Below the pieces are notes generated by a model. It was not told where the DNA came from. It did no database searches and saw only the letters and a list, made by a program, of their open reading frames with translations. The position numbers and the translations under genes are program-made. Shown one piece after another: positions 11,510-61,477 of a DNA stretch of 64,000 nt. The stretch's first letter is position 1; each line of letters starts with the position of its first letter. The stretch is from Utricularia gibba (lineage: Eukaryota; Streptophyta; Magnoliopsida; Lamiales; Lentibulariaceae): positions 3,658,001 through 3,722,000 of the forward strand of contig CM007991.1 in assembly GCA_002189035.1 (NCBI GenBank), written 5' to 3'.

Positions 11510-14500
11510 ATGGAGTCTATTACGGAGGATCAACTGATGGAACTCGCGGTGGTGCCGTCCGCGACGTCCTATGGGGAGTTATTGGAGGCACAACGGGAGC
11601 TTCTGCTGAATCAGATGGAAAAACTACAGGAGTTAGTCGCGGTTCAGTGTAAACTGACGGGCGTCAATCCGCTTTCACAAGAGATGGTATCGGTTTTCGT
11701 TGACCTCGGGATGTGTAATTGGATTGGCCATTGATTTTGGAAAAATTAACGAGTTTGATTTAAATTTATGCAGGCTGCTGGGCGCTATCCATCAAGATTG
11801 GTGAGTTTCCTTCACTCTTTCTGTTTTATACGATTTGCTGTAATCTTAGGGTGAATACCGAGTGAATTCCTATCAATTCGTTTGCTGTACGGCTAGACGT
11901 CAACTAAATGTGCAATTCGTCATTTTAGGGAAGAGACCAAGAGATTTGATGAACCCCAAGGCTATAAAATACATGCAATATGTGTTCTCCATCAAGGATT
12001 CAATCAGCAAGCGAGAGACAAGAGAGATTAGTGCTCGTTTTGGAGTCACATCTACTCAGGTTCATTGTTCCGTTTCCAGCTCACCGTGTCGCTCATCTTT
12101 CCGCCATTGTTTTTTTTTAATTATTTCATAAAATTTATGCTTCTTGGTTTAATTGTGACAGGATCTTGGAATTCATCTTCTAAAGATTTACTTATACCAT
12201 ACTGCTTATCAGTTGTCTCGTGCCCTTTATTTCTAGGTTCGGGACTTTTTCACCGGACAAAGATCAAGAGTTAGGAAATTAGCAAGATTATCTGGAGAGA
12301 GGAGTAATAAATGTGATTTGCTGCCTTCTACCTCGGGTTATGATGAAGCCATGGAACAGCCGATCCCTTTAAATACCATCATTCCTTCTACGGTCGAGGA
12401 AGGGGCTTCTAACTCTAAGGGCAATGACATTCTATCGGAAGTGGAGAAATCAGACTTGCATTTCACCAAAAATATTTTTAGTTCTATGAGAAAAGAAGAA
12501 TCGTATGGTGAGCAGGTTAAATTGCTTAGATGGATTCTGCGTATAAAAAACCCTTCGGTTCTGGATTGGTAAGTACAATTTTGTGAATGGAACAAGAGCG
12601 ATCCTTTTCCCAGTTTGATATAATGCTGGTGCTGTTGCAGGTTTTTAATTGAAGGGGGTCTGTTGATATTGGCTACTTGGGTGGGTGAGGCTGCCAAAGA
12701 AGAGCAAACGAGCTATTTGAAGGTCATCATGAAGGTGCCACTTTCTGATATTCTGATTCTCTTCTGTGCTTTATATTGAGAAACGATGGCTGTTCCTAAA
12801 GATGTTGCCATTTTAGGTGCTACACTACTTGCCGCTTCGTAATGCACTGCCTGCGCATGTGTCTGCTGTATTACAAAGCATCAATAAATTACGGTTTTAT
12901 CGGTTATCGGGTGAGTTCTACTTGCAATTATTGCCTCCAACTATTCTGTAGTATTTCCTGTTGATTGTGACTACTTGAAATTGATTTTAGTTTCCTTTAT
13001 ATTTAGCTGACTCTTTTCTAATTTGAAGATCAGATATTTCACACAGGGCGAGGGTGCTTTTATCCCATTGGAGCAAGATATTTGGTAAGAGTCTATCTTC
13101 AAAGAAGAACAATGGACCAAAGTCAGCAAGTGATCTGCAGGATGAGATGTTGCTGAAGCAAAGGCAAGTTCCTTGTCAGCAGATATACGTGCAACTGTAC
13201 CCTTTTCATTTTCTTACTTGGTTTTATTTCCTACAGCATTCGTGAGGTCATGGATGGTGAATCATGGGATTTTAAAGATGAGAACGCGGTAAGTTCATGT
13301 TGGGTTGTTTTATACCTACCAGTATCTGCGAATGCTCATGTTATGGGTAAAAACGCAGGCATTATCTATGGGATTGCTGTGTGATAATCCTGATAAACTC
13401 AGGTTTGTAGCTTCTTTTCCTATTTTTCCACTTGTCTGTTGTAGTTTTTTCGTTAATTTCGTGGATCATGGTGGAGTCTTTCTCTTCAGGAAATCACTAC
13501 CTGCTCAACCTCTGAAGTTGCTCGCTGCACCGGCAGATGAAACTGACAAAAAAAGGGGGGTGTTGCCATCTTGTATCCTTTTTCTTAGTTCAGTATTGGG
13601 ATTATTTTGTGGATTCTCCTAGGTGAGGAATTATTACCAGCTCAAATATTTGGTGCTCCTTAACGTGTTTCAGATACACGTGAGCGCAGGAAGGTTCAGA
13701 TATTAGAACAGCCAGGTCAAAAAGCAACTTCGAGGAATGCCCATTCCTCAAAAACCGCTCTTGCTCCTCAAAGTCGCCCACTTTCAGCTGACGACATACA
13801 GAAAGCAAAGATGCGAGCTCAATTTATGCAGAGTAAATATGGGAAGGCAGCATCTTCTGCTGAAAAGAAGACAGAGAATCAAAATGGGAGCAGCGTATCT
13901 GTCGGTTTACCTTCATCAGTTCCTAAGTCACTTGAGGGCAATCAAATTGAGGAGGAAAAGAAGATTGGGAGTGATGAATCAATTAGTGTTTCTAATCTAC
14001 AGGAAGTCCAGCCACCAAAAGTTGATGTGCCTCCACCAAAAACCCGGAAGAAAGAAAAGATCTTATGGCGGATGCCTCTAGGTATTTTTTCTTTGTATCT
14101 TAGCTTTAGTCATGGTGATATTTTTCAGTATGTACTCTCTATCCTTAGTCTACGTAGAGTAACTTGATCTGATAAACTCACTTGGTGCAATAATGTCTAA
14201 ATACCAGTTTGGTTATTGGCGTTGGTATAATGTCTCTATCTTTATCGAATGCAGAAATCAAAGTTTCTGAGGACTGGCATGTTGCCACTGGAGAGAGTAG
14301 TAAAGAAGTTGAGGTCCAGAATAACAGAACTAGACGTGAAAGAGAAGTAATTTACAGGTCGCTACAAGAAATTCCTTCTAACCCGAGAGAACCTTGGGAC
14401 CGTGAAATGGACCATGATGATTCACTAACCCCCCAAATTCCAATTGAGCAATTACCGGACATCGAGCCTGAAGAAACACCATCTGTATTACCAAACGAAA

Positions 14501-15779
14501 GAGAGGATTATACGGCTTCTGTTGCATCAACTTCATCTGCCGTTGCCGCAGCACCTGATCCTGAACTGCTTACTGCGTTGTTATTAAACCCTGATTTGGT
14601 TTTCGCACTGACTTCTGGGAAAGTTGGTGCTGTATCCAGTGAGGACATTGTCAAGCTCCTAGATGTGATCAAATCAAGCGGACAGAATTTGACAAGTAAC
14701 GCAGCGGCTCTACCAAGGAATACATGCAAAGTTGAGGTATCGCTGCCATCTCCCACACCGTCCAGCTCCACTGCACCGGTGCGTAATTTTTCCAAATTTA
14801 ACTTCATCATTGCCATTGAACCCACAATCTATTTAGCACATTTCAAGAGGATGATTACTCATAGTGTTGCATTCCACTTTCTGCCATTGCAACATCCACA
14901 ACCGAACAGGGATTTGGCCATTGGATGATAGAAACGTATAAAGTCATTCAAAAATGTAAAAAAGATGCCCCTAAGTTGTGCTTCTCATTTCTTCAACTAT
15001 TGTCTGCACCATGATTCCTTCCTTAGTCATCATCGTTATTATCTTATGTTGTGTTTGTATATCAAAAACCAAGAGCACCATTATGTTGCTTACTGTAGCT
15101 TTCCTTTTACGCGCAGAATGGTCTGAAGCCAGAGTTGCCTAGTAATCCATTTTCACGCCAGCACAATTCATCAATTTCTACTGGATATCTAGCAACTGGA
15201 GCAGCTCCCCTGCAAGGAAGGTCCTATGCACCGGCTCCGGTTGGCGCCGCCTCGCGAAGGGCTGAGCCGGAATACGGGTATGGTCAGCTGCAGCAGCAGC
15301 AGCAGTGGGATCTAACCCACCACCATATAAGTTCTGGTCTCAATTCCTCCAATACACATCACTTGACGACTACTGTGGCCAGCTCTCACTGGGCTGCACC
15401 CTCTGTCGACGTTAGGCTCTCAGCACCTCCTGCAAGAGCTCATCACATTCAGCTACAAACTCCAAATCTTGTGCAGTCATCTTATTTACCAGAGCATCTG
15501 GTTCCATCAAAACATCAGTTTCAAAATAACCAAACGTTGAATAACTATAGGATTCAGCCTGGTGGAGGAGTGGTGCAGGGCAACTGGAGCCCGGAAAGCC
15601 ATCGGCAACATGAATATCTCCCGGGGCAGTACTACAACCAGGCAGGTTCCAGCTTGTTGCAGGGACAAAGGCCTGAAAGGGCTAGCAATGCGCAGGCTGC
15701 GCAACAACAACACCCTTTTGGTTATCGAGATCCCAGCCTTAGTGGAGCTGCAACAAGACGGTGGCCGGATCGAAGGTAG
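11510..15779 (+). CDS. LD: LUMINIDEPENDENS homeodomain protein (autonomous flowering pathway)
   Basis: Thirteen coding exons: 11510-11686, 11774-11800, 11929-12059, 12237-12568, 12641-12734, 12817-12910, 13034-13163, 13237-13288, 13359-13402, 13490-13572, 13674-14081, 14255-14778, 15117-15779. About 919 residues if one missing base in exon 2 is allowed. Diagnostic segments are CKLTGVNPLSQEM, the divergent homeodomain (KRPRDLMNPKAIKYMQ to VRDFFTGQRSRVRK), the TFIIS N-terminal-like region (VLHYLPLRNALPA), the SADDIQKAKMRAQFMQSKYGK segment, EPWDREMDHDDSLTP, and a Gln-rich tail. LD promotes flowering by lowering FLC-type repressor expression and is nuclear. Oddities: exon 2 (GGG at 11780-11782) is one base short of the frame that reads ALSIKIGKRPRD; a later donor at 11715 would restore frame by adding about ten residues. 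The intron after exon 7 starts with GC (13164). Confidence 0.93.
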
Positions 15780-16180
15780 CAGCATCGAGTCGACACAGAG
15801 GGGTAGAAGGATTTGTTGGCTGCGTTCATGAATTTGTGATTAGAAAGGTGGTGATCACTGGGAAATCTGCAAGGCTTATATACTCGAACCCGCTCCTTTG
15901 TTCTACAGCGGTTCCAGCAGAGAGACAGACAGACACTTTGTGTTGTGAAGTGGTGGAGTTGATCGAGTTTCTTGTATTAATCAATTTCATGGATTTATTT
16001 ATATTAACAACAACACAGTGATGTAGCAGTGGACGCAGAGTTGCAACATGCAGTTTGATGTTTTGAAATGCTCGTGATTGAATGCAGTATGGGCCATGGG
16101 GTCTAGTTTTCCATTCTCATGTTGCAATGTGAGCACCAACCCTCACCAGAAACTGAATAAAAATGCAAAAGAGAGAGAAA
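15780..16180 (+). other. LD 3' UTR and short spacer to tRNA
   Basis: Mixed-composition sequence with no conserved open frame, probably the LUMINIDEPENDENS 3' UTR. TTTT on the minus strand at about 16162-16170 can serve as the RNA polymerase III terminator of the adjacent tRNA gene. Confidence 0.5.
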
Positions 16181-16254
16181 TGGCGTCGCCCGGACTCGAA
16201 CCGGAGACCTTCAGTGTGTTAGACTGACGTGATAACCAACTACACCACGACACC
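16181..16254 (-). tRNA. tRNA-Val (anticodon AAC)
   Basis: Read on the minus strand, this 74-base stretch folds as a complete cloverleaf. The 7-bp acceptor stem pairs GGTGTCG with CGACGCC, with one G-T pair, and a discriminator A follows. The D-loop region contains TAGTTGGTTA. The anticodon stem-loop is CAGTCTAACACACTG with anticodon AAC. The T arm carries GGTTCGAGTCC, which also matches the internal B box. There is no intron. It decodes valine GUU and, through inosine, GUC. A T-run follows on the minus strand as expected for Pol III termination. Confidence 0.95.
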
Positions 16255-16589
16255 AAGTTTGTTCATGCATTTTGCGCCATGATCATAACAACACACAATA
16301 CACTATAAATTAATTCTTGACAAATACTTTGTAATTATGAGAAACCATTCTAAAGAGTGGACCTAAAAAAAGAAAACATATGCTATTGACGGCAACAATG
16401 ACTTTCATTTTGGATAAGGCTACCGCTTTGAAGTTTGAAGTTAGAAGGAAGCAGAGAAGGCAAAATCGGTGATCGGTTTCTCAAAACCACGTGCAGCATC
16501 CGGTTTCTCGCCTCGTCTCCGTACTTGGCGTTATAACTACCAGTGGGCACAGTTGGGTAGCTCTGTCTCGAGAGTTCAGAGTTTCAGCG

Positions 16590-17480
16590 ATGGAGAAACC
16601 AGCGATTGTGGTGGGTGTCGATGAAAGTGAGCACAGTTTCTACGCTTTGGAGTGGACGCTGAGCCACTTGCTAGTGCCCTATCCGCCCCAAAATTGTCCG
16701 TTCAAGCTCGTTGTTGTGTACGCTAAGCCTGCGGCCATCACCGCCGTCGGTCTCGCGGGGCCAGGTATGAGTATACTGATGTGGGCTGTTTGGGTTTGAT
16801 GAATTGGTGTGAAGTGACACGGTTGTGGTCTCTGTTGATGGGAATTTTCACGTTGAATTGCTATTGGGTCGGATCGCGAATAATGGTTTGTGGGAGCGAG
16901 TGATTTTTGGTGTATTGTGATTTGAAGGTACCGCGGCTTTGCTCCCAATGATAGACCAGGACTTGAAGCTGGTAGCTACGAGGGTGCTGGAGACGGCTAA
17001 AGGAATTTGCGAAGCCAAAACGGTACTTTTCAAAGCAGAGATCACTTACAGTCTTTATATTCCAAGCAAACACTGCCTCCTGCTTCACACAGAATCAAAC
17101 GTGTTGCAGGTGACTGATGTGATCCTTGAGTTTACTGAAGGCGATGCCCGTAATGTTCTCTGTGAGGCCGTGGAGAAGCACAACGCCTCCATTCTGATCG
17201 TGGGCAGCCATGGCTATGGAGCAATCAAGAGGTAACGTGTTTCTTTCAGTGCAAGCTCCTGCACAGAAACAAAAAACTGAAACTTGCGAGTTGTGATGGT
17301 TTGGTCTTCCCCATTACCATGTGCAATGGAGCCTTGATGACATTTCTCTTGTGCTTCGAGAGCCCGGGAAGCCTAACATTAGATGTGTGCTACGTATGTT
17401 GCAGGACTTTTCTGGGAAGTGTGAGTGACTACTGCGCACACCATGCGCATTGCTCTGTGATGATTGTGAAGAAGCAGTAA
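16590..17480 (+). CDS. universal stress protein A-like (USP) domain protein
   Basis: Four coding exons, 16590-16764, 16928-17022, 17110-17231 and 17405-17480, give 155 residues, the usual size of a single-domain plant USP. The N-terminus IVVGVDESEHSFYALEWTL is the first strand and helix of the Rossmann-like USP fold. The C-terminal half carries the ATP-binding pattern G-x2-G-x9-G-S: GSHGYG, then a splice junction, then LGS. The last strand is CSVMIVKK. Such proteins bind ATP and respond to hypoxia, drought or other stresses; the exact role is unknown. It is probably cytosolic since no targeting signal is seen. It is convergent with the Brix gene, with about 267 bases between stop codons. Confidence 0.93.
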
Positions 17481-17747
17481 TCATCAATATTGCATCTTCC
17501 TACCGCAACTGAGCATCGTTTGAGGAGTCCAAATTCAATTCATGATCATCTGCATGTAACTGCTGTTCCATTATAAAGTTCAGTGTGCTTTGGTTACTAA
17601 GAGTATCCCAAAAAAAAAGGAATCATATTTTATGAGGACAAAAAAGGATGTCTGAAGGGAGATATATAGCTCAAAATTATCGTTAACAAAAATGAAACCC
17701 ACCACTGGGATGCATTTGGGAGTTTAGGGTACGTTACATAGAAGCTA

Positions 17748-19289
17748 CTACTCTTCATCCCCAGCATCGTCTTCTTCCTCCTCATCCTCATCCTCATCTG
17801 CATCTTCATCTTCATCTTCATCTTCATCTTCTTCCTCCTCATCTTCATCATCGTCTTCATTGTGGTCATCAGCGCCACTCTTTTCCCCATTGTCTTCGGG
17901 CCTGTTGCCGGATTCACTGTAAATGACTCCACCAGAACATAATCCTTCCTCCACCTTCATAAGCTGCAGTGTCATCCTTGGACCGATCTCTTGAAGTCTG
18001 ACGGCACTCTTAGAGGATGCACGGTTAATTCTACCAAGATCTGCAGGTAGATCAACCATTGCTGCTTCATCATCAGCTTCGCTTTCTGATCCATAACCAG
18101 CCCTTACGAACACAAGAAGAAGGAATCAAATCAATCGTCTTCACGGAAAATAATCTCTATATCGGTGGTATAGACTGAAATGACATCTTACTTTGTCACA
18201 AAATCACTGACATCCTGAAGGTTTCTCAAATCAGGGACCTTATGATTCTGTACAATCTTTCTTATCCGACGAGACACCCCAACTGGCTGTAATCTGATGG
18301 AGTAGTGCCTGAAATCAATAAGTTTGGTGTCCTTGTTGTAGTTCAGTAGAACAATCCTTTGGCATGTCGAAACCTTGACCTGCAGCACAACTTATGGTGA
18401 GCTAAAAACTTTTGCATGCATATATGAGAAACAGGAAATATTATGAGAATGTCCCCAACCGTGTTGACGTCAATGGCAGGAAAAATGTTTTGAAACATTA
18501 TGGTGGTAAGCTTCAAATGTTGTTCACCAGTTCCAAATCCAGAGAGCACAATCTGCACACATGAAGAATTGAGCATAAGGACAATGCAAACTTCTATAAC
18601 AACCCCAAAAGGGATCAAGAGAAGCCCTAAAAGCATCAACATTTATGCGGGATCAAACTACCAACGGTGGACTTTTGAAAAGATCCTTGTGACATCTAGG
18701 TCGCAGCTGAGACTGAGCAACATCAGCTGCCAATGAATACTGGTTAATCTTGAACGTAAGAGTTGGGCCTTGGGGTGTCCTGCAAACTCTCAAGTATGGA
18801 GCCGCGTCGGTTTTCGATAAAATGAGAAAATGTGTAACACCCATTGGACCGGCAACATTCAGGAAGTCCTTGAGATTGTTGCGTTTTTTTTCCTAACAGT
18901 ACACACAAAATGCATAAGAACATCATCGTTGGGAAAGCAGCTTATACTGTAAAAAAATCCTTCATTCAAACAAAATGTGCTCAATTACAGAATTAAGTAA
19001 ATACCGAAGGCGCACACCTTCAGATTCAAGGCAGTGAATGGAAGCATCACTTTCCTCAAATCCATTTGAAATTGTCGCAGAACCCCTGGCAACTTCCCCT
19101 GGAAAACACGAAACTTTTTGGGATTTTATCTCCAGTTACATGGTCAACGGACGGCTGCTTCTTGATTTTCGATTTCACAAACGGCTTCCTCTTCTTCTGA
19201 AACAAGACCAAAAATTCATCAACATACATTGATCATGAAATAATGGAAAACCAAATCTAAACTAGGCTCACATTCCGAAACCTAGCCAT
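17748..19289 (-). CDS. PPAN: Peter Pan/SSF1-type Brix-domain ribosome biogenesis protein
   Basis: Six coding exons on the minus strand: 19289-19272 (MARFRN only), 19196-19018, 18892-18662, 18552-18460, 18379-18192 and 18102-17748. The product is about 354 residues. The Brix fold covers most of the protein: FRKV-like basic start, GPMGVTHFL, LRPRCHKDLF, VLSGFGTGEQHLKL, CQRIVLLNY, DFRHYSIRLQP and GVSRR. An extreme acidic tail of Asp/Glu follows from about residue 300. Peter Pan/Ssf1 proteins act in the nucleolus in 27S pre-rRNA processing for the 60S subunit. Exon 2 has an apparent one-base deficit: the CCCC at 19096-19099 would need five C to read SRGKLPG in frame. With that base every exon closes in phase; without it the frame stops before the end of exon 2. 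Confidence 0.93.
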
Positions 19290-19371
19290 CGAGAAAACTG
19301 CGTGCCCACCCCGACGAGCACCCCGGAATCCTTCGTTGTCTCTCGAAATCAAAATACAGAGTTTTGGCACC

Positions 19372-19470
19372 TAGGGTTTCCGTAAAAAATCGAAAACCCC
19401 AAATACAACAAATACAATTAACATTCTCCTCCCCCTAATGTGGGCCTCGCCCAGATTGAAAACTAGCCCA
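19372..19470 (-). promoter_or_regulatory. PPAN promoter: telo-box and site II motifs
   Basis: On the minus strand upstream of the Brix gene there is an AAACCCTA telo-box (19372-19379) followed by AGCCCA/TGGGCC site II-type words (19441-19446, 19465-19470). This pair is characteristic of plant genes for ribosome production and growth, where TCP factors bind site II. It fits the gene. Function is inferred. Confidence 0.6.
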
Positions 19471-19669
19471 TTATATTCTCGATCACCTAAAGCAGCCCAA
19501 ATAATTCATTTTTTTTAATTTCCACCAAAAATTGAAAAAAAAAATTCATGAGACGATTAAATGACAGTTTGATATTTATTTATAAAAACATTAAAAATAT
19601 TTCTTAAAAAAATAAACAATTTATTCGCATTTTGAATTACAATCAAGCAGCTCAAATCATAAACCTTAG

Positions 19670-20145
19670 TTTGATAGTGTTTGGTAATTAGTTTAATAGT
19701 AGTTTTAAAATATGTTTTATTTAATATGTACTATTGTAATAAGTTTTATTGAAAACGGAAGGAATTATATGTTTTATATTAAACCATATATTTATTACTA
19801 ATTTGACTTTTAAGCGATTACAATTAATAATTCTATATATAAATGGAACATACATGAAAATGAAATACATAATAAATATAAATAATAATAAAAAATATTA
19901 AAATTAATTGATTAATAATATTCTATCATTCATTATATAATTGTTTATTTTATTTTAAATATCCATTTAGAATTATTTATTTGGATTGTGATTTATTTAA
20001 AATCACAATCCAAATATCTTTTTATTATAAAATATAACACGTCCAAATCCACCTGTCAAGTATATAATAAACTTAAAACCATATAATATATTTTATTTTC
20101 AATCATATTATTAAAATCTTAAATCACCTACCAAACACGACCCTA
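19670..20145. mobile_element. possible degraded MITE with short inverted ends
   Basis: GTGTTTGGTA at 19677-19686 has its exact reverse complement TACCAAACAC at 20129-20138. The intervening 460 bases are AT-rich and non-coding. GTGTTTGG words are common in Tourist/PIF-Harbinger and related plant MITE ends. I could not see a clean three-base or eight-base target duplication, so the call is tentative. Confidence 0.35.
19979..20015. repeat. perfect 16-bp inverted repeat (hairpin)
   Basis: ATTTGGATTGTGATTT at 19979-19994 is followed after a 5-base spacer by its exact reverse complement at 20000-20015. It lies off-centre inside the possible MITE at 19670-20145. No T-run terminator or coding context goes with it. 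Confidence 0.85.
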
Positions 20146-21117
20146 GTCTTATATTAAAAACGTGGTTATCTTATTGGAGCCTAAAATCGTCATGCGATTT
20201 TGTTGCTTGTTTTGTATTTCTGAATTGGCGTGGGATGCAATCAATTTCAACGTCTTTGGTGTAGTAGCGTCCAGAACACAACACCATCAACCAAAAAAGT
20301 TGGTAAACCAAATTAAATTGTGTAACACCACAACAAGAACCCTAAAAGAGCAATCCACCTCCTTTGGTACTTTTAAGCAATGTTTCAAAATTTAGACCAA
20401 AATTTTTCGAGCCTTAGGATTTCGGATTTTTTCCTCGAAATGAAATATTTCGGAAATTTGCTCGAAATTACACCTTTTGAATTAAATCTAAAAACCAATT
20501 TTTTTTGGAATTCAAACAAAATTAACAAGATAGCATGATTTTTAGAATTCTCAAAAATTTTCATTAGTTAAATTAATGACAAAATTAGTCCTTATTATTT
20601 GGCACAAAGTGTGCCTTTCGTCTTTATTTGTAAAATTTAACTATAAAGTTTCACGTATTTTTTTATATTTAATCCTCTAAATTTGGTATGTCGAACATAA
20701 GTTAGTTTCGGAATTCCAAAATTTTATATACTAAACATTTTTTATAGCTAGAATATACTGGATCCTCAATATTTAAAAATAGTACATGTTTAATTTCTAT
20801 TATTTTAATATTTGATGAAATTTATTTTTAAATTAAATTGATATTATAAGTTGTTTGTTAGGGACGAGGAGGCTTGCAAATTAATTAACAGTTGAAATTT
20901 TTATTACAAATAAACAGCAGGGGTACATTAGTAAATGGTCGGCCGAGGCCATCCTTCTTAAAACTGGGGCGGGGACAGACCGAGGAATTGGAGGAGTCAT
21001 TAGGCAGCTTTAGAAACGCCACGCGCCGCCGCCCACAGGCCGGAGACGGGACGCATTACGCGTGGTTATTGGCTGATTTTTTTTCCTAGATACGACGCGG
21101 CGGGCTTGCTTTTGTAA

Positions 21118-23356
21118 ATGGGTTACTCTGCGAAGCCGGTAAAGTTGTGGCTCAATATAGTTCGTCCGATTCGGTACATGCTCCGCGAGCAACGCTTGGT
21201 TTTCCTTTTCGTTGGTATTGCGATAACGACGCTCGTATTTTCCGCCGTGCCTCATTCCGATCACCGAGGGCTGCTTCCTCCCGGTTCCGTTTCCGCCGAT
21301 TTCGATCCCATTCGCCAGAATCGCCACCTCGCGACTGGTTTCGAAATCAACTGGAAAAGTGGAAAAATTCCTCTCGGACTGAAGCCCAAGGTACAGCGTA
21401 TTGTCGTAACCGGCGGCGCCGGATTCGTTGGCAGTCACTTGGTTGATCGTTTGATTAGCAGAGGAGACAGTGTCATCGTGTTGGATAATTTCTTCACCGG
21501 GAGAAAAGAGAATCTGGCGCAACATTTTGGGAACCCTAGGTTTGAGCTTATTCGACACGACGTCGTTGAGCCCATTCTTTTGGAAGTCGACCAGATCTAT
21601 CATCTGGCATGCCCTGCATCTCCTGTTCATTACAAGCACAACCCTGTCAAAACGATCATATCCTTTTTCCGATTAAAGCTTCGTTCTTTCTCTGTCTACC
21701 ATTTCTATGTTGTTTTAGATCCTTAATTTTTGCTGGTACAAGACGAATGTTGTAGGGACACTGAACATGCTTGGTCTCTCCAAGAGAGTCGGTGCTCGGT
21801 TTTTGCTAACGAGCACCAGCGAGGTATACGGTGACCCATTGCAGCATCCACAAGTTGAGACCTACTGGGGCAACGTCAACCCAATTGGTAAAAATTTCAA
21901 TTCCAAATCTTCATTCGTAGGTCAAATTCTGCTGCTCTTTAGGCTTGTATTTGATTTTTTCTTTCAGTCAAACTTTTCACGGATCCCTTTGTCCCTACCA
22001 GCTAACTTTTCCTATACACCGACCGGTACCGTGGTTCATTTAATTCATGGGTCATGCCGTACCGGTGATCCGATCTGAGTAGCGATGCACGCTGCCATTG
22101 TTCAACTTTAACCTAGCCTTGGAATCTAATTTAGGTCCCCCATGTTCCTAAAGCATTCATAAAGCACCGAAATTTAGTGTTTTGAGAACTGGGGTTGGTG
22201 CCTATTTTAACTGTGGTGACTAAAAATGAGATCTTGTGGCTAGGGGTGGGGATTTAAGGGTTGTGGAACGCAATCACCTCCCCGTGTTGTGTTTTGTAGA
22301 AATCAATGTTGTCGTCTTGAACTTTTATCTTCATGGGGCTGAAACAGGGGTGCGCAGCTGCTACGATGAGGGAAAGAGGACAGCCGAAACATTGACTATG
22401 GACTATCACCGAGGTGCCGGTGTCGAGGTAAAATATCTCTTTCTCTCCTCTCCCTCTCACTTTCCAATGAAAAAAGGGACGTTTTTTGTTCCTTTTCCTC
22501 GTTTAGGGCACTGTCCACTCTTTAATTTTTGATGAATTGGACCACCGAATGCAACAGCCAGCCCCAAAAATAATATCTGTAGTTGAACTTGCTGTGTCCA
22601 ATATCTGCTACTTATTAGGGGAAATAAGTGGCAGCGGTCCCAAACAGGCTGGTGAACTAAATTCCAGCATACGCTGTGCAGTGAACTTGTCGGATGGAGA
22701 TCTCCATGTTTTAGCATGTCTAAGTCCCCAAATGTGGTTTTTTTACAGGTGAGGATTGCAAGGATCTTCAACACGTATGGACCCCGTATGTGTATCGATG
22801 ACGGCCGCGTTGTCAGCAATTTCGTTGCCCAGGTAAAGCATATGCCACAGAAGCCATCAGAAAAGTAGTTATTTCTTCATCCCTGAAACACTACTCACGA
22901 ATCACAGGCTCTGAGGAAGGAGCCATTGACGGTTTATGGCGATGGGAAGCAGACGAGAAGCTTTCAGTATGTTTCTGATCTGGTAAGCATTGCCTTCTTC
23001 GCATTGAGCTGTGTATTGTACATGTTGATGAGTTTCTGGTTTCTGTGAATGAATAGGTTGATGGGTTGCTTCGGTTGATGGAAGGGGAGCACGTGGGGCC
23101 TTTCAATCTTGGTAACCCTGGAGAATTCACCATGCTGGAGCTTGCACAGGTTGTCCAGGAGACGATAGATCCGAATGCAAAGATCGAGTTTCGGCCGAAT
23201 ACCGAAGATGATCCGCATAAGAGAAAGCCAGATATCACGAAGGCGAAGGAACAGCTTGGGTGGGAGCCCAAAGTGCCGCTGCGCGAGGGCCTTCCGATGA
23301 TGGTCGCCGATTTCCGGCAGCGAATCTTCGGTGACCAGAAGGAGAACCTTTCTTAG
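21118..23356 (+). CDS. UXS: UDP-glucuronic acid decarboxylase (UDP-xylose synthase), membrane type
   Basis: Six coding exons, 21118-21657, 21740-21887, 22348-22427, 22749-22832, 22908-22982 and 23057-23356, give 408 residues. A short cytosolic N-terminus with [11 protein letters not shown] precedes one membrane segment (residues about 27-44), as in type II Golgi UXS2/4-like enzymes. The short-chain dehydrogenase fold starts with the NAD-binding GGAGFVG (99-105). The catalytic Tyr-x3-Lys is YDEGK (Tyr235, Lys239). [17 protein letters not shown] and the C-terminal LGWEPKVPL are family signatures. It converts UDP-glucuronic acid to UDP-xylose, the donor for xylan, xyloglucan and glycoproteins. 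The first intron (21658-21739) begins ATATCCTT and ends AC, a U12-type AT-AC intron; without it VKTI would not join KTNVVGT. Confidence 0.95.
21658..21739 (+). other. U12-type AT-AC intron in UXS
   Basis: The 82-base intron opens with ATATCCTTTT, matching the U12 donor consensus, and closes with AC at 21738-21739. ATCCTTAAT (21719-21727) fits the U12 branch site and its A lies 13 bases from the end. Removing it joins codon ATC to AAG exactly as conserved in the protein family. No GT donor gives this join. Confidence 0.92.
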
Positions 23357-23738
23357 TTTACCCTGTTAAGAGTTGGAAGCGAGGACCTGCCTTCTGTACT
23401 GTTTTTATGTTATTCCCTGGTTACTTTTGATCCATATGAGCAACTTTTTTGATGAAAACATGGAAGCAGTTGGTAGATTGATGCTGGCAAGGGTTGAAAC
23501 CATGAAAATTGAACCACATAAGAAGACACCTAAATGTTGTCACATAACTGCATGTACTCTGGAAGTTCATGGTGGAGTCTGCAAAACATGCTGCTTCCCA
23601 CACACAACCGCATTACAGAAATCTAATCAGCTTTGGATCGTCTGCAGCAAGTAAAGATGAGGAGCATAACGATACAGGTTCAGGAATGTGATCGGCAGAA
23701 GTTACTAGGACCAACAAAATGTAGCATCTCCATACCTG
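23357..23738. other. tail-to-tail spacer between UXS and SmD2
   Basis: 382 bases that must hold both 3' UTRs of two convergent genes. The short frames on either strand have no family resemblance. Poly(A) signals are not distinct enough to call. Confidence 0.5.
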
Positions 23739-24685: not shown

Positions 24686-24976
24686 TCTCAATCCTCAAAA
24701 TTCAACCGCGATTCCAGACAAGTGTCCCTACTAGTGACAGCGGATGAGGGCTTGCGAAAACCCTGAGTCCAAAATCGTAGAATCAAGAGAGAAAACTCTC
24801 CGATCTCCGTACCGCCGACGCAAACCTAGGGCGCGCTGGTTCGCTACAAGCAACTACCTTTCTACTTTCACAATTTAAATAATAAATTTTATTTTCGTAT
24901 TAGTAAAATGAATATAAATTAAATAATGGAGCATCATTAAAAAACACACGGCATATTATCCATAAATTCTAATACT

Positions 24977-26521
24977 CTACAACCGATGATGCCTGTTAAA
25001 CAATCTCCGGCCACAAAAATGCCGATCTCCGCCTTGTATCTCACGTCTCTTCGCCGTATTCCGAACGACCACCGTGTCGGAAATCGGAGTTGTACAGTTT
25101 GCGCGAGCGTCCAACCACGCTATAATGTCCGAGAACACAAGCTCTACATTGCTATCGGGTTCCCCTGAAGTCAACCCATGCCACATCCCAGGATACAGCT
25201 TCATCGTCTTGTCCATGCTGCCGGCTTTCTCGTATAGTGCCCGGCTCACCTCCGGGTCCGTCACCGTGTCGGACTCGCCGTGGAGAACGAAGAACGGCAT
25301 CGTCACCTGATGAATCAGACAACAGAAGATCTGAGCGCTCGAGGAACATGCCGGGCTAGTTCAGTTAAAGGATGCAGAGCAATGCCTCATGCAGACTCTG
25401 CTCAAGTTCGATGCTTGTGCGAAGCAGTTCCAGCGCAGTTTTTAAACGGGGCTTGCCCTGATATATCAGCCCATTGCTGCGTATCTGCACCGGAAATCAG
25501 AGGGCATTCATGAACAAAGTAAAAGCTTCTGTGTCTGATACGCAGGGGAGAGTGAGCTCGCTCACCTCTTCTCTTTTCCCGAGGTCTTTAAAGGCTGAGT
25601 CTATTACATCACTTGCAGGAACTATCTTCCATGTTGGTATCATGTTTTCGACCAGAGTAAGCAGGCTGATTACCATTGGATTCGGCTTCATCTTCTCCGA
25701 TATCTGCAGGCCCGAAAGGCGACAGATCAGAAGCGGCTGAAAAACGTGATGAAGATGATTTCAACCTTGCACATTGGGGCAACAAGCACCACTCCATCCC
25801 AGAACTTGGGGTCTTTCTTGTGTATCAGTAAGGCAACTGCCCCTCCCATTGATTCTCCATACAGGAATCTCTTCTTCCCTCTGAACTCTCCTTGTTCTGC
25901 AAGAGAAACTGATTCGCGGCACATTGGAAGGTGGAAGAGGGGATTGATTGTTGTACTCACCGGAGATGAACTTGAAGTGGTTACTGCAATCTGAGACAAT
26001 GTCTTCAAACTGCTTGATGTAACAGCGGGGTCCCATGGATCGACCATGGCCTTCGTAATCTAATCCGAAAACGGAAAATCCATGAGACGCCAGCTTGATT
26101 CCCACCCCTGGAATTACAGACAGATTCCAATGTTTTGATCAGAAAAAGAATCGATCTTGCTTGCGGTAATGATCCAGAAAAAAGAAAGTGTTCAAATCAG
26201 TCACCCTTCATGAAATTACTGCATTCCATTCCATATCCTGAAAACACCATTAAATTCGCATCAGGGGAAATGCTGTAGCAGACCAAAAGAAACCCATGTA
26301 CAACAGAAAACAGAGACCGTGACAGAGGAATACGAGAGCCTTGGGAGGAGAAACAGGAACCCATCGGCAACTAAACAGCTCTACTCCACGGCTGTTCTTC
26401 ACGTACTCCTGAAACGAAATCACGCATATCAACAAAAAATCCGCAAACCCAACATCGGTAAAAAAAAAAAAAAGAAGAAGAAGAAAGGAAAAAACCCCAC
26501 TTCATGATAATCAAACTCCAT
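24977..26521 (-). CDS. alpha/beta hydrolase, monoacylglycerol lipase / caffeoylshikimate esterase-like
   Basis: Eight coding exons on the minus strand: 26521-26501, 26408-26318, 26237-26205, 26107-25961, 25896-25766, 25703-25566, 25484-25386 and 25306-24977. The product is 329 residues. The fold signatures are HGYGMECSNF (oxyanion region), FGLDYEGHGRS, the nucleophile elbow GESMGG, the acid in HGESDTVTDPE and the catalytic His in GMWHGL. It belongs to the plant MAGL-like group close to Arabidopsis At3g62860. Plausible substrates are monoacylglycerols or lysophospholipids; caffeoylshikimate is less likely because the sequence is not of the CSE type. The C-terminus extends about 35 residues past the hydrolase core and is basic and unconserved. 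The seventh intron starts GC (25385-25384), since read-through stops after a few codons. It is head-to-head with MED28. Confidence 0.9.
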
Positions 26522-37880: not shown

Positions 37881-37884
37881 TACG

Positions 37885-38075: not shown

Positions 38076-39547
<1,472 letters not shown>

Positions 39548-47811: not shown

Positions 47812-49577
47812 CACGAAATCGAAACCAGGCTTCACAGTGGAGGTGGCGAGGAGACCAGAAGCCAATCAATTAACCCAAAAAGTGAGAAATCCGGAGTTTC
47901 AATTAGGGTTTCAAAATACTTTCCATTTTCCTCCCTTTTTCCTCGACATGCGATTGACAGGTGAAAGAACGTGCGTCCGGATTGTAAAGTCAGTAGTCGG
48001 CCACAGCGGAAAAGTGGAGCAAGACGCAAATGGCGTACGCGTGGAAAACAATGGAACAAGAGCTACTACATCTCCGGCCCCCGGGTCGGATCTATCCGCC
48101 AGTGACCCGACTGATCGATTGAAGAATCCCGTTGTCTCCCCATCCACCACCACAATTTGCCGCGAAATGTTTTTTTATCCTTCGCGGGGACACGTGTCAC
48201 GTTCTCGAAGGTAATTTATAAGCCGCGTGGGACGGGTGATATCGAGTTTTCACCCTCTTGATTCCAATTAATTTATTTTGAAAAATTAGGAAAGGTTATA
48301 AATGTAATTCTACCTTTTTCTTTCAAATTTCGATTTATAAAATTATGCAATTTCTAATTCCATTAACTTCTCTATGATTTGTTTTTTTAGACATTTTTGT
48401 GTAGAAATAAGTCAATATTTTGTTCGATTTTTCGCAAGTTTCATTTGTTGGGACTTGATAATATATAGACTTGAATTTTGGAAAAATGCTTTTCAACAAG
48501 CATTCTAATAAAAATTATTTGTGTTTTTTGGAGAACAATTATATATTATTCATTGTGATTTAACTTCTCTATATACGTCATTATACAAAGAAGTTGAATA
48601 ATTAAGTTGGTATAAATAGATAATAATCTATTGTATATTTCAAAAATTTGTATATAATAAGTTTTTTTCTTAAATTTTTTAATTATAGTTATATATGTAG
48701 CATTTTTATTTAAGAAACATTACTGGTAAAAAAAAAGAATACATAAATCTACGAATTGGACGGGGCCCGCTTTAGTGGGGACATTTGGAATTCAATTTGG
48801 GGCCTAGTTACTGACAAGCGAGACTTGAATCCTGGATCCGACCCGGTATCCCAAACAATTTGTATAAAAAAAAATCCGAATAAATACTTGGATGTATGGA
48901 TGGTGATGATGTCAAGGGATCATGCGCAGCAACAGCGCATGGAGAACGCCCATAATATGTACAGATTTACACCATGTCATGCCATGCCATGCCATGTTCA
49001 TGTCCATCATGCTGTCCAAAAGCTGATTCCCCTTCCTTATATCACCCGAAAAAAATGTACATGATTCTCGCTGACTTCCTTCTCTTCGCGTGAGGTGAAT
49101 CAGAAGGTGGATTTCTGGGCGACCATTTAAGCCCTAAGTTCATCGTCAGTCTCCCTGAGCAGTAAAGAGCTTGGAATTAACTTTCTCCTCTGCTGCTACC
49201 GCTGCTGCTGCTTCCATCGGTTTCAGAAATGAAAATGCAATGCCTTGCAGTGTTACTACTCATCGGCGCGGCGAATCTCCGGCATGGTTAATCTTTTTAC
49301 ACTTGGTTCTCTGGGTTTCTTTTTAGGATAAAAGGGTTTTCCCAGCAGCTGCATGAAATCATGCCATGTTCTGTGGTGTGGTCTTGGTTTTGTGAAAAGG
49401 ATGAATGCATACTACTGGTAAGGTAGTTTGTTTGTGGCATATTATAGCATAAAGCATGAAAATAATTACTGTCTGGTGCCAGTGTAAAGCAGAGATGACA
49501 AAGGTAAAACCACACATATGATTACATTACAGCTTCATGGGGGTCTCTCACTATAAATACTGCAGCCATGGATGGAT
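47812..49577. other. Di19 leader/promoter and AT-rich spacer
   Basis: The Di19 leader and promoter lie to about 48230, followed by AT-rich DNA to 49050. A stretch at 49075-49260 resembles a CT-rich leader followed by a 20-codon frame starting near 49229 with a hydrophobic N-terminus; no continuing exon was found. The rest is probably the NAC gene 3' region. Confidence 0.45.
48972..49002. repeat. CCATG pentanucleotide microsatellite
   Basis: Four to five tandem copies of a CATGC/CCATG unit within intergenic sequence, rich in the palindrome CATG. No function is apparent. Confidence 0.7.
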
Positions 49578-50760
49578 TCATGTGATCTCTATATTTTCAG
49601 TAGAATTGTTTACAGGAAGAATGGAAGCTGATCCATCGTCTCCCACCTTAGTGTCTTGCCTTTTCTTCCCAGATTGGAAGCCTTCGTTTTTGCCAAATGT
49701 CTCTTCTTGACTCAGTTGGGAAGCCACAAATCTGTCAAAAACCCTCCAATCCGTCACGTGGTTGTCACTGATTTCACCATTTTCTGAAAACACCAAGCTC
49801 TCCAGTCCCTCACATTCTTCTTCTCCCTGGTGCAGGGCGCTTCCTTGGCTGATATTCATGGGGAAGAATGAGCTGCAGCCGGCGTCGAGATTGGGGTTCT
49901 CAACGAAGTTGGTTGTTGGCGGGTGGATGTCTAGCGTAGAGGGGAAGTACCCATGATGGAAAGACACCTCCTTTTTGGTGTAAGCTAGAGTATGACTGTA
50001 TAGGAAGGGGTAAGACTGCTGCTCCTTTTGATTTAAAGCTTCCATCTCCGGTAAGGCGGCGCCGTCGTCGTACCATAACGGAGAATATCGATCGCCTGAT
50101 CTTTGCATCGCGACTGGCTTTTTCTTGAAAACCCTACAAACGACCCACCCTTCTTCCTGCATTTCCAAACAACGCCGAGACTCGTCATTACACACGAAGT
50201 CATGTGTAGCATTTCTGGGCTGTTTACGACGTGGGATCGATACTCCGTACCTGCGGCGGTGCATTTTCATCGGATTCCAGGCGATATTCGTGCATGATCC
50301 AATCTGATTTGAGTCCATTCGGGGCTCTTCCTCGATAAAACACCAACGTCTTCCGCATCCCGATCAGCTCCGTCTTCGAATAAATCGACTTATCGCGGCC
50401 GGTCGCCTTCCAGAACCCGGCGGCGGTGGCTCTGTTGGTCCGCGTTCCGGTCGGATACTTCTTATCCTTATGACTAAAGAAGTACCATTCACTCTGCTCC
50501 TCAGCTCCAATTCTACACAGCTCTTTTACAACAACAAAACCAGTACAAATCTAAACCCCACCTCACAGAAAACTAACAAGCAAAAAATCATGACACGTAC
50601 CTTGAAGATCCCAGGGCTCGATTTTGTACAGATCAACGTCTTTAATCACATCCAAATCGATGCTTCCAGAACCCACCTTTCTCCGCAGATAGTAATCCAC
50701 AAGCTCCTCATCCGTCGGATGAAACCGAAACCCCGGCGGCACTTTAGAAACCCCGCTCAT
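49578..50760 (-). CDS. NAC transcription factor, VND/secondary-wall clade
   Basis: Three coding exons on the minus strand, 50760-50601, 50522-50251 and 50156-49578, give 336 residues. All five NAC subdomains are intact: [19 protein letters not shown] (A), [17 protein letters not shown] (B), [20 protein letters not shown] and [14 protein letters not shown] (C), [18 protein letters not shown] and [10 protein letters not shown] (D), and [13 protein letters not shown] (E). The phrases [17 protein letters not shown] and [14 protein letters not shown] match the VASCULAR-RELATED NAC-DOMAIN group. The C-terminal half is an acidic, Ser/Asn-rich activation region containing [13 protein letters not shown], a motif of this clade. 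VND factors switch on xylem vessel secondary-wall and cell-death genes through SNBE sites. Two introns at the conserved NAC positions. Confidence 0.94.
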
Positions 50761-51700
50761 ATTCACTGTAACCCAAAAGATATCCCTTCCTTTCAGTTCA
50801 CTAACAGAAAACAAAAATAGACAAGAAAGATAGAACACGGAAACCCTGTCGGGGACATCACCAACGAAGCGTTAAGACTCTCCACGTCCTGTCTCGTTGC
50901 TGTCGGGGTTTGCGTTTGCCGAGGAGAAGGTTTCAGGGAAACCCTAAAACCGAGAAAGCTCGTGAGTTGGAGGAGCAACCAAAACGAAAAGGAAAAGGAG
51001 TTTCGAGTGGGAGGCCTAATGATGAAAAGGTCGGTTTTAGTAGAGGGATTTCATTGGGTGTCCTGCGCTGATGTAGATAAAGGCGACGATGAGAATTGCG
51101 CGCAAAGCTTCCGTTTGGGTCCGGTGTGGCGCAGAGGTCGCCGTGGGGCGGTCACTTGCAGCACTGTGGCGCAGATACCTCCTTCCAGTCCCATACATCT
51201 GGTTTATAAGGTAGGCGCCGGGAGGCTTTCGTCGTAGAGAATACGCTTCGATCATCCATTACCGTCTATCATCATTGGGCTGCCGGGCGCTTTCCACGTG
51301 GAATATTCTCGGCCGTTGGATGCGGGTTGCGGAACCCATACTCCGCGGGCTTATACCTAATAATACAACGTATTCTTTTTTTTTTCATTAATATATTGCA
51401 GGTTGTAAGAATCATTATTTTAAAATGTGAGATTTAATGCAATTCCATACGAATTATGATTTTAGGGTTACATTCACAAATATTATTAAGTAATTATTTT
51501 TTATTATTATTATATTTTTAAAGGATTAAATCCAATTTAACTAATTGTAAAAAAAAAGTTAATGAGTTATTGTGAATATTGAATGAATTATTGGTTTTGA
51601 AACTCGTATTTATCGTACTGTGAAATTAATTATTAAATATTTAAATTCAATAATAATTTTATTGGTTATCAATTTTTGTAAATATTAATTATAACATACT
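50761..51700. other. NAC upstream region and AT-rich spacer
   Basis: Probable NAC promoter and leader. On the minus strand TATAAA reads at 51203-51208, about 445 bases before the ATG. From 51370 to 51700 the DNA is AT-rich. No additional gene is supported. Confidence 0.45.
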
Positions 51701-52046
51701 AGTTTCTGGTGAGTTCGGGCGGCGGACACGCACGTTAACTCCTCATACCAGGGAGGACGCGTTTGTCCTCGTCGGCGGGTTCCATGCTCGTCTTCTCCAT
51801 CGCTTGGCAGGATCTTTTCCAGCCGATCACCAGGTTATTAATCGGTCGAATCCAGTCGAGGTGGAGATCCGGCGATTGGTAGCCCGTACCGCGCTGCTCG
51901 CTTCGTAGCACAGTTCTCTGGTTCGCGATGAATTGGTTTGCGGTTTCGGCGTTTGTTATGGCGTTTTAAGCCGATTAGCTTGTTTTATTGCGGTCAAGGG
52001 CGGATTTTCGGGTTTGCGGCCGGAGGAGGCCGACAGTGGTTGTAAT

Positions 52047-52293
52047 ATGCCGTTCTTTTGCATGGCGACTTTTGATCGCGAGTTGACGACGAAGAGAAAA
52101 AGAAATCGTGAAGAAACCAGATTTATGCATCGAGCAAAACTTGCGGCGGTGAAATTGCACCTGGAAGTTACTGCGGCACCCGGTACAAATTTCATGGGCC
52201 TCAAGAACCAAGATCATTATTATGGAAAGGACGGCGAAGATGGCGACTTAGACTTGCTGAATTCATCCTCCAGAAACTCAAGTAGTTTCTTGT

Positions 52294-52301
<8 letters not shown>
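52047..52301 (+). CDS. hypothetical small protein, convergent with PGM
   Basis: An 84-codon frame starting at ATG 52047 after a GC-richer leader-like stretch (51710-52040) that contains a 13-codon upstream frame at 51928. The predicted protein is basic in its first half (TTKRKRNREETRF) and ends in a Ser/Asn-rich segment. I recognise no domain. Its last eight bases overlap the end of the phosphoglucomutase coding sequence on the other strand. It could be a real small gene, or only part of the phosphoglucomutase 3' region. Confidence 0.25.
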
Positions 52302-56026
<3,725 letters not shown>

Positions 56027-56128
56027 TTTCTTCAAGGAAGTGAAGAAGAAGAGGGCGTGATCTAGAGAAACCCAGATCAAAATATCAGGCGCCGTTAGCT
56101 GCTGCTGATGATGATCCATCATATCCGA

Positions 56129-56136
56129 GTATTTAT
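56129..56136 (-). promoter_or_regulatory. TATA box of plastidic phosphoglucomutase gene
   Basis: TATAAATA on the minus strand, about 103 bases before the ATG at 56026. It places transcription start near 56100, downstream of the alternative ATG at 56122. Confidence 0.6.
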
Positions 56137-56139
56137 AAG

Positions 56140-56883
56140 GTTTCTTTTTTTTTTTGCAATATTGTTTCGAATACCGGTTCGGAATTCAAGTGTGTGAAAA
56201 ACTACACTAATTGATTTCTAAAATAAAGAGTTCCATATATATGTAAAAAATTTGGTTATATTCAATGTCTATTTTGTATCTTAATAATTGAGAGAAAAAG
56301 AAGATATTATCATGTTTATAAATGAATTTAAATTGGAGCCACACAAATACGAGTTCAATAACGGGTCAACGAGCCGTGGGTAAGACGTTGACTGGACTCG
56401 AACGTGCATGGACTTGTCCTAGGTTTACTCATTTTAGAAGGGATAAATTTGTTAAAATATCTACTTGAGTACAAGTGGATCCAAAATATGTTGAATCAAT
56501 ATAAAAAATTACGGGATCAGCATATTAAACTCGTTCCAAGTGCTTAGTTGACTCGAATCATTACACAATTTATATATATTAATATAAATTGAGTTTAATT
56601 TATAAATCATGTATCCATTTGATTGGATTATTTAATTTATTTAATAAAAACATATATATTTTTTATTTTTAGTTTATGTTTCAAATTTAACCCGAATCCA
56701 TCAAGTCTACTTATACCCATGTATTATGAATTCGTCCGGTACATGTTTTTTATAATTATGGAGATGAATATCCAAGTCTACTGTATGTATAACTACCTCT
56801 AACTATGACTATTTAATTTTTTATTTCTAATTAAAAAATATCACCTCAACAAGTCGACTTGTTTAGACTGGACTCGGACTCAT
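56140..56883. other. AT-rich spacer upstream of PGM
   Basis: AT-rich intergenic DNA with no gene. It contains scattered degenerate words such as GACTTG and GACTCGA that suggest old repeat sequence, but no clear element boundaries. Confidence 0.5.
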
Positions 56884-56891
56884 ATAACAAT

Positions 56892-57266
56892 TAGAATTCG
56901 GCCGGTTCCAAAACCGCCGGTTCTTGTTCGGTTTTATTGTTGAACCAGAATCAATGGTTTCTGATTCTCCGATTCTTTTTCTTTTTTATTCCGGTTCTGG
57001 TTCTGGAACCATTAGAACTATAAGGAATTGAAATCATTAGAATATATTAGAAACTATTATTTTATAATTGTATTTGATATATTTATATTATTTTTCCATG
57101 AAACTAATGATTATGATTGTTCAATTATTCAAACAGAACCAGAACCACTCTTCGGTTCCAAGTTGAAACCGGAACCTGTGTGGTATATTGGTTCCGGTTC
57201 CAAACCGGAACTGAACCAATGGTTTCGGTTTAAACCACGATTAGATTCTGAACCGGTCGAACTCTA
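56892..57266. mobile_element. hAT-type MITE, 375 bp, with 8-bp target duplication
   Basis: The left end TAGAATTCGGCCGGTTC and the inverted right end TAGAGTTCGACCGGTTC match at 15 of 17 bases and start with the TAGAR typical of hAT elements. Both sides carry the identical 8-bp direct repeat ATAACAAT (56884-56891 and 57267-57274), the hAT target-site length. The interior is full of GGTTCCGGTTC/GAACCGG subterminal repeats on both strands. No transposase frame exists, so it is non-autonomous. The perfect target repeat suggests a fairly recent insertion. It lies about 230 bases upstream of the NLR start codon and may affect its promoter. Confidence 0.92.
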
Positions 57267-57497
57267 ATAACAATGATCCGAGTTGAAACCTGCCTCACAA
57301 GTGTCTGCTACCACAATGCTGTTATTGGATTACAGCTTCAAATTACACAACATATTCAAAATATTTTCATATAAAAACATGTATTTTCCATCTATATTTT
57401 TTTTATAAAACATTTTTAATACATCAATTCCTCCAGAACACACCCCACCTTTATTCTGTATCGAACGGAACATTTCTTGTGCTGCAGCAAAAGCAAG

Positions 57498-60400
57498 ATG
57501 TCTGATCTGGGAGGGATCTTTGGATCTCCTTCTCTCCCGCTGTTGCTTCTGCAGTTGAAATCAGCCGTGCCTACCAGGCACAAGAGAGTCGAAGTTCAAT
57601 TTGCGAGGTTATCTCAAAGCTTGACTGAAGTAATCGGAGTTCTCGAAGATGTAGAGGAGCAACATGTAGCCGATAAATCAGTGACATTATGGCTGGAGGA
57701 AGTCAGAGATGCGGCCTATGACTTGGATGATATTTTGGATGAAATTAAAGCCCGTGATCTGATTCGGAGATCCCAATGCAAGAGGCAGGTGATATCACAA
57801 CTTTGTAGTTGTTGTAGTCCTCAACTCGTCATTTTTAACCATTATATGGTGTCAAAGATAGATGAGATCACAGGTAGATTGCAAGATATAGAAAAGCAGA
57901 TGATTGATTTGAGATTGAGTGACAAGAGCAGAGGTCCAGGGAACAGAAGCCCAATTCCAGTTACAAGGATACTAAAATCTGGGGTTTCTCCACATAACCA
58001 TGTATTTGGAAGAGAGAAGGAAAAAGATGCGATAATCAAAATGTTATCTGCGGATAGCGATGATTTGTTGGTCATCTCTGTTGTTGGAATGGGGGGTATT
58101 GGCAAAACGACTCTTGCTAATTCAGTTTGCTATGACCCAGAAGTTGAAAAATATTTTGATGTGATTGTTTTTGTGTATGTTTCTAAAGATTTCGATAAGA
58201 TTGTGCTGACCAAAAAGATTTGTGAAGGTGTAATGCTCATAGATTCTGATTCCATGATGTTCCATGCTCTACAAAAGCGTCTAGAGGAGGAACTGCAAGC
58301 CATGAAGTTTCTCATTGTCTTGGATGATATCTGGAATGAAGAGTACGATGAGTGGATTGATCTAATAAGTCCTCTTCGTGGTCTACCAGGAAGCAGGATC
58401 ATAGTAACTACTCGTAGCGAGGCTGTTGCAAAAATGGTTGGCTCCTGTGATGTGCCTTCTCTGTATTTGAGTTTGCTGACTAATGAGGACAGCTTATCAC
58501 TGATGGAACAACATGCTAACATATGTTTTGACGACTGTCCAGAATTTAGAGATGTTGGGATGAAGTTGATAGAAAGGTGTGAAGGCTTGCCCTTGGCAGT
58601 TAAGGCACTTGGCGGGGCTTTACACTCGAAAGCCAGGAAGGAAGAGTGGGAGGAGGTGCTGTGTAACAAGATATGGGATTTACGTGGAAGTGGCATTCTT
58701 CCGGTTTTATGGTTAAGCTATTTTGATCTTCCACCCCATCTGAAGAGAATTGTTGCTTATTGCTCAATACTTCCCAAAGGCTATGAATTTGAAAAAGATC
58801 AGCTTGTGCTTCTATGGATGGGAGATGGATTGCTGGAGCAACACCCGGATAGTCAAACTAAAGAAGAATGGGGTGATAAATGCTTCACTGATCTATTGTT
58901 CAGAACATTTTTTCAGTCTTGCGGCAAAACCAAGTCAAGTTTTGTGATGCATGACATTTTGAATGACTTGGCTCAGTATGTTGCTCAGGAGACTTGCTAT
59001 CATCTCGGAAACAAACCCTCTCAAGCTCAGAAACCAGAGAAGATACGCCATTGTTCTTTTCTTCATCAGCGATATCAAGTTTTCAATAAGCTTGAGGGTA
59101 TTCAACAAGCAAGGGGCTTGAGAACCTTATTGTCTGCACCAGTCTGCTCTTCTTGGTCGATTTCCTCCTACATGTCATCCAAGATTGTATCTGAGTTACT
59201 GCCTAAGCTGCCGAACTTAAGAGTTTTGTCTCTCTGCAACTCAAATATTGAGGAGCTTCCAAGTTCAGTTTGTGAGTTGATACATTTACGTTATCTCAAT
59301 CTCTCTCAAACTCATATCGCCAAATTGCCTGATTCGTTGGATAAACTTGTTCTCTTAGAAACATTATCCGTCAGTGAATGTGGGAATTTGGAGAGGTTGC
59401 CAGAATCTTTGGGAAATTTGCCTTTCCTACGTCATCTTGACAACTCGGAGACTTACAAGGTTGAGTATATTCCTTCTGCAGTAGGAAAGATGAAATGCCT
59501 ACAGACATTGCCACTAGTGACTCTGAGCAAACACAAGGGGTTAAGAGTGAAAGAGTTACGATCTCTGGAGCATTTAGTTGGTGCACTAACCATACGGGGC
59601 TTGGAGAATATTACAGCCAGAGACAGTGTGGAGGGATGTCTAAAGTCAAAAAGCAAGCTTCACAGTTTACATCTTGAGTGGAAAAGGCAGACTGACCCTG
59701 CTGGTGTTGGAATTCCTGAGGAGGAAGATGTCCTCGAAGGCTTGCAACCTCATGAAAACTTGAGAAGGCTGGAATTAAGTGGCTTTGGTGGATCAAAGTT
59801 CCCGCATTGGATTGGTGATGATTCATATCGAGCACTCTCTGATGTAACTCTACGGTGTTGGAATTGCACATTTTTACCTCCTCTTGGGCAACTTCCAAAC
59901 CTTGTGAAGCTGCACATACAAATTGATAATGTCAGTCGCATTGGGCAAGAGTTCTATGGAAATGGTACGACAATTCCATTTCCTAAGCTTGAAAGCTTGA
60001 CATTTTGTGAAATGCCAAACTTGAGGGAATGGGGTTGTCTACCTTGGAGTGAGAATGATGACTGCCAGCTCTTTTCTCGTCTTCAAGCTCTTGAAATTTC
60101 TTTCTGTGAAAAACTAGAAGATGTTCCACCATTGCCATTTCGCTCGCTCCGAAGTTTGATACTTTGGTCATGCAGTGATGTTCTGTTGCAGAGATTCCAT
60201 GGCCTTGGCTCACTAACTTACCTCGAAGCGAGAAGCATACCTGGGCTGCATCATTTGCCTCTCGAGCTTGTGCAATCCTTTTCATCACTGGAAAAACTAC
60301 ATATCTGGGCATGCGACGAGCTGGAAACATTATGGCCAGAGGATACTACACTTGAACATCTTAACCGTATGAAGACCATAAGAATACAAGAATGTCCAAG

Positions 60401-61477
60401 GCTACAGTGCTTGGGATATGGAATGGAGCAACTCCCTAGAACCCTTCGACGTCTGGAGGTGCATGACTGCCCCAGCCTTGTTTCCCTTTCAAATGATCCG
60501 TGCAACCTCAGCTCTTGCACACGGTTGGCTTTCATCCAATGTGGAAAGCTGGTGAGCTTACTGGAGAATGGTATGCCTCAAGGCCTCAGATCTCTCAAGT
60601 TAGATTTTTGCGATGCCTTGAAGTCTTTGTCGATGATCAACACCCCTCGTCTACAAGACTTGTCAATCATCAACTGCGGCTTGCAATCTCTGGGAACAGA
60701 GAATTTTCCGAGTTCCCTGAAAAGACTGGAATTATACAACTGCAGGGAGCTTGATCCTGTTCCAGATAGCAGTTTCATGTCGTTGGAAATTCTCCATCTG
60801 TGTGCTCGGGATGGCTCAGGGTATCCCTTCATCCAGCGTGTCCAGGATTTCGACACCTAGTGGAATTGAATCTGATTTACTGCGATACTGTAAAGCATAT
60901 ACAGGAATTGCCCCGTACTCTCAGATCACTTCGAATTGATGCCTGTGCCGCCCTCGAGTCTCTTCTTCCTGGTCATGTTCCATCCATAGGGTCACTGCAG
61001 ATGAAGGATTGCTCTCGACTCGACAATTTTCCAAGCTTCAGTTTCCCTTCAAGCTTATCAAGCCTCCAAGTGGTGAAATGTGAGAAGCTGAAACCGCTCA
61101 AGCAGTGGGGGCTTCGTTCACTCCCCAATCTGATAGAGCTCCATATTAAAGGAGGATTTCCAGACCTCCAGAAACTGAGCGATGATGATGATCCTTGTCT
61201 CTTCCCCCCTTCCCTGATTCGATTACGCATCGACGATTTCCCACTCCTGGATTCACTTAGCGAGGTTTTAGAAAATCTGAACTTACTCCAGTTCCTCGCT
61301 ATATGGCAATGTCAAAATCTCGGCATTCTGCCGAGCGAACGCCTGCTCCAGAATCTTCACCATCTGCAGTTGGGGTATTGCTCAATTCTCAAGGAAAAGT
61401 ACCTCAAAGTCGGAGATGATTACCTGAGGAGCAAACTTTCGATTCCCCTTGTGGAGTATTACTGGGAGTTTCTCTGA
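57498..61477 (+). CDS. CC-NBS-LRR disease resistance protein (frameshifted near 60820)
   Basis: An intronless CNL of about 1,325 residues if read across one frame change. The coiled-coil region contains VTLWLEEVRDAAYDLDDILDE, an EDVID-like segment. The NB-ARC domain has the P-loop GMGGIGKTT (197-205, Lys203), kinase-2 LIVLDDIW (Asp276/277), the RNBS-B RIIVTTRS, GLPLA (363-367) and MHD (484-486). About twenty irregular LRRs follow, with GMPQGLRSL-type repeats as in RPPL1/R13L-like proteins. The first frame stops at 60858-60860. The same LRR series continues in the next frame (from about 60800) to TGA 61475-61477. A single missing base, best placed at GGG 60820-60822, explains it. It is an intracellular immune receptor by family; its ligand is unknown. 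ATG 57498 is the first in frame. Confidence 0.93.

Follow-up and report, generated by a model that had tools for sequence, protein, structure and literature searches.

The window, by which we mean the whole 64,000-nucleotide stretch of DNA analysed here (C3:3658001-3722000 of assembly GCA_002189035.1), carries among its genes a LUMINIDEPENDENS-like homeodomain gene (LD), a PPAN/SSF1 gene with a Brix domain, a gene for a plastid-type phosphoglucomutase (PGM) and an NLR gene, each of which is interrupted by a change of reading frame. Table 1 gives the four sites together with breaks in other conserved genes of the same assembly, and we argue below that all of them are best understood as a property of the assembly.

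Four interrupted reading frames

For three of the genes our analysis bears out the one-base shortfall claimed in an earlier note, at a GGG run in LD and at CCCC runs in PPAN and PGM: one added base joins the frames at each. Without correction, the LD translation meets stops soon after QEMAAG and the end of exon 2. Inserting one N at the run yields ...NPLSQEMAAGXLSIKIGKRPRDLMNPKAIKYMQ... and keeps the frame open through exon 6, the exons beyond having been read by eye only, and a homeodomain is recognised in the corrected product. In PPAN exon 2, KSFVFSRG and KLPGVLRQFQMDLRKVMLPF lie in different frames of the same exon and are joined by one base at the CCCC run; human SSF1 can be aligned to the resulting Brix protein with no gap at the junction. 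Similarly in PGM, IFVDKLG and a 25-residue segment are offset from each other by one base at the run, and the joined protein aligns gap-free at the junction to phosphoglucomutases of known structure.

The NLR gene is less sharply defined. Two open frames, at 57420-60860 and 60770-61477, overlap, with LRR signal in both, so that one base must be missing somewhere within the overlap. The claimed loss of one base thus stands, while its placement at GGG 60820 does not: three G/C runs of at least three bases share the interval, which makes any exact site a guess.

Table 1. Sites at which a conserved reading frame is broken, in the window (positions from its first nucleotide) and elsewhere in the assembly.
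Gene	Part or locus	Position	Strand	Run at the break
LD (LUMINIDEPENDENS-like, homeodomain)	exon 2	11774-11800	+	GGG 11780-11782, one base short for the conserved frame
PPAN/SSF1 (Brix)	exon 2	19018-19196	-	CCCC (+ strand) 19096-19099, one base short
PGM, plastid-type	exon ending KLGASP		-	CCCC (+ strand) 54103-54106, one base short
NLR	frame-change interval	60770-60860	+	candidates GGG 60808, GGG 60819-60821, CCC 60825
HSP70	L006			GGG
HSP70	L021			GGG
HSP70	L007			CCC among tied candidate positions
HSP70	L013			two breaks: GGGGG, and a CC/G site
HSP90	L062			CCCC
HSP90	L063			two breaks: CCC and TTTT
Actin	L069			CCCCCC

The breaks in LD, PPAN and PGM are also isolated, as had been proposed: there is one lesion in each gene, with conserved and open sequence on either side. 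On reading most of the remaining genes of the 64-kb window we found no additional frame breaks. A suspected fifth break near 25,900, in the MAGL lipase gene on the minus strand at 24.98-26.4 kb, proved to be a 64-base GT-AG intron, and a suspected break in a BRCT gene at 3.4 kb was likewise a short intron.

Two further features near LD may be recorded. The LD intron at 13573-13675 resembles the U12 type: its 5' site, at 13573, reads GTATCCTTT, and CTCCTTAACG, just upstream of the acceptor, is branch-like. Between LD and a USP gene there is a gene for tRNA-Val (AAC) on the minus strand, at 16180-16255.

Frame breaks in other conserved genes

We looked for the same kind of lesion elsewhere in the assembly (100,091,633 bases in 516 contigs) through searches for HSP70, HSP90, actin and UGT genes. 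A break was called where two model-adjacent pieces of a gene lie in different frames and either abut or share a few bases, leaving no room for an intron, and it was placed by frameshift-aware alignment to intact paralogs. Frame-broken HSP70, HSP90, actin and UGT genes were found, several genes being affected, and the breaks are spread over contigs C1, C255, C414, C451 and C496 among others. All nine high-identity breaks outside the window are losses of one base, with no gains. As a control, random bases were deleted from intact paralogs and passed through the identical pipeline (n = 360); a G/C run of at least three bases is among the best-scoring positions for seven of the nine breaks and for only 12 of the 360 simulated losses (3.3%). 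The binomial probability for six of eight breaks at G/C runs is 3.6e-8.

Because their references are more distant, the breaks at L010/L011, at L064 and in the UGT genes were placed less precisely. The first of these is a single HSP70 break common to contigs C241 and C304. In the UGT genes the net change is again a loss, every insertion seen there being either paired with a nearby deletion or located where an alignment ends. An overlap met in the tubulin search was rejected as a break of the assembly type, since the locus, an alpha-tubulin fragment (L065, C1:5059500-5060050), is a true pseudogene.

How common are such breaks? We count six for about 19 HSP70 genes and four for about 10 HSP90 genes. 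Using estimated coding lengths, this amounts to 6 in about 36 kb and 4 in about 16 kb respectively, as against 4 in about 28 kb in the window. On these figures the window does not stand out. In about 269 kb the spectrum of G/C run lengths lacks a clear deficit, which is a point against undercalling; the spectrum is not diagnostic.

DNA assembled twice

The lesion can also be viewed in DNA which the assembly contains in two copies. Contig C376 (29.6 kb) is a duplicate of part of contig C413 (L077/L078), probably representing an alternative haplotype that is identical to C413 over the compared stretch. Across 9,860 aligned bases the two differ by no substitution and by five one-base gaps, all of them in C or G runs (C5/4, C4/3, G4/3, C3/2 and C7/6), C413 being shorter in every case. 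A further 4,641 bases, towards the end of C376, again contain no substitution and hold eight one-base gaps, six in G/C runs and two in A runs, and here it is always C376 that is shorter. Together the two stretches come to about 14.5 kb with no substitutions and 13 one-base gaps, of which 11 fall in G/C runs. If heterozygosity lay behind these differences, substitutions should accompany the changes of run length. On its other side C376 departs from C413, with four substitutions, a 39-base indel and a 4.65-kb indel over about 5.2 kb, and since C376 is in this way a partly divergent haplotype, some of the run differences could be allelic.

In an inverted duplicate of EF2 on C304, the 3,048 bases compared show a single C5/C4 gap and no substitution. 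In the EF1A cluster (L071/L072, C1:2665500-2678600) there are several near-identical copies, one of which departs from the rest at a GG/GGG run and at a two-base gap.

The earlier note had explained the breaks in the window by undercalling of homopolymers in a long-read consensus. The recurrence of the lesion in conserved genes of other contigs and in twice-assembled DNA upholds this as a systematic effect, with the qualification that the effect is not confined to G and C: one T4 run in an HSP90 gene has lost a base, and two of the differences between contigs lie in A runs.

Origin of the breaks and related assemblies

Judged from these sequences, the four breaks in the window are almost certainly errors of the assembly consensus, in which G/C runs would have been undercalled systematically in a long-read consensus that received no effective short-read polishing. 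The consensus caller would settle one base too low at short G or C runs and, with accurate short-read polishing absent, the missing base would never be restored. What we found is what undercalling should produce, namely changes of one base, at G/C runs far above chance, by loss and not gain, and genome-wide. Most likely, then, LD, PPAN, PGM and the NLR gene are intact in the living plant.

Could the genes instead be true pseudogenes, carrying genuine loss-of-function mutations of this individual or lineage? NLR genes are frequently broken in real genomes, and the NLR break, taken alone, could be a genuine mutation. That the assembly does hold a genuine pseudogene is clear from the alpha-tubulin fragment, with its stop codons and lost residues. 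However, in contrast to that fragment, the additional lesions or relaxed constraint to be expected of a pseudogene are absent from LD, PPAN and PGM, which have a single lesion apiece and are otherwise conserved, and the identical single-base lesion is carried by HSP70, HSP90 and actin genes. Copy number points the same way. When the assembly is searched with pieces of exons, LD and PPAN are each found at a single locus, that in the window, and the plastid PGM in one copy; two PGM-like loci elsewhere, at 58-70% identity, are taken to be cytosolic forms. With no second copy of LD or PPAN and a single plastid PGM, decay of spare duplicates is unlikely, and we regard true pseudogenes as a very unlikely explanation of the four breaks. 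It is extremely improbable, too, that short G/C runs in the plant genome truly shed single bases unusually often, as they might if a repair function had been lost, and that the plant tolerates this.

The remaining readings would leave the sequence correct and repair the frame later. Programmed ribosomal frameshifting or transcript slippage might rescue it, short runs being the kind of site where slippage can happen, but the genes are unrelated, their sites have no motif in common beyond the G/C run, and such a mechanism does not explain why copies of the same DNA differ in run length alone; we give it next to no credence. Missed introns or alternative splice sites have in their favour that introns of about 60 bases do exist here, the apparent break in the MAGL gene having been one. 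In LD, PPAN and PGM, on the other hand, the frames meet within one conserved exon that leaves an intron no room, and PPAN and PGM align without gaps through the junction to solved structures, so that the chance of an error in the gene models is practically negligible.

Explained by undercalling, the set of breaks belongs to a known class of artefact and is not a real biological feature. This matters for any use of the assembly in which gene loss, pseudogenes or relaxed selection are scored, which would yield many false losses; should this be the U. gibba reference, any gene loss claimed for that small genome needs a short-read check first. A literature search turned up no specific report of frameshifts in U. 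gibba.

As to the platform, we infer PacBio-type long reads, with U. gibba as the probable species, because in size and contiguity the assembly is like the published U. gibba PacBio HGAP assembly, which has 581 contigs and a contig N50 of 3.4 Mb (PMC5793159). A bacterial genome assembled from PacBio P6-C4 reads with HGAP and Quiver offers a close parallel: it kept 205 indels until Illumina polishing, nearly all in G/C homopolymers (PMC4832174), and as here the errors are of one base, lie mostly in G/C runs and are able to break frames. Unlike in the bacterium, the runs affected here are short, mostly of 3 to 6 bases, and the density is seemingly higher, with 13 gaps in about 14.5 kb (where two copies are compared, partly at a contig end) against 205 in 7.17 Mb (PMC4832174). 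PacBio assemblies of Plasmodium made with HGAP and Quiver likewise had indels that lay predominantly in homopolymers, and showed apparent frameshifts in duplicated genes, although in that case 98% of the homopolymer errors fell in tracts longer than 14 bases (PMC5964635), whereas the runs in the present assembly are short and mostly of G or C.
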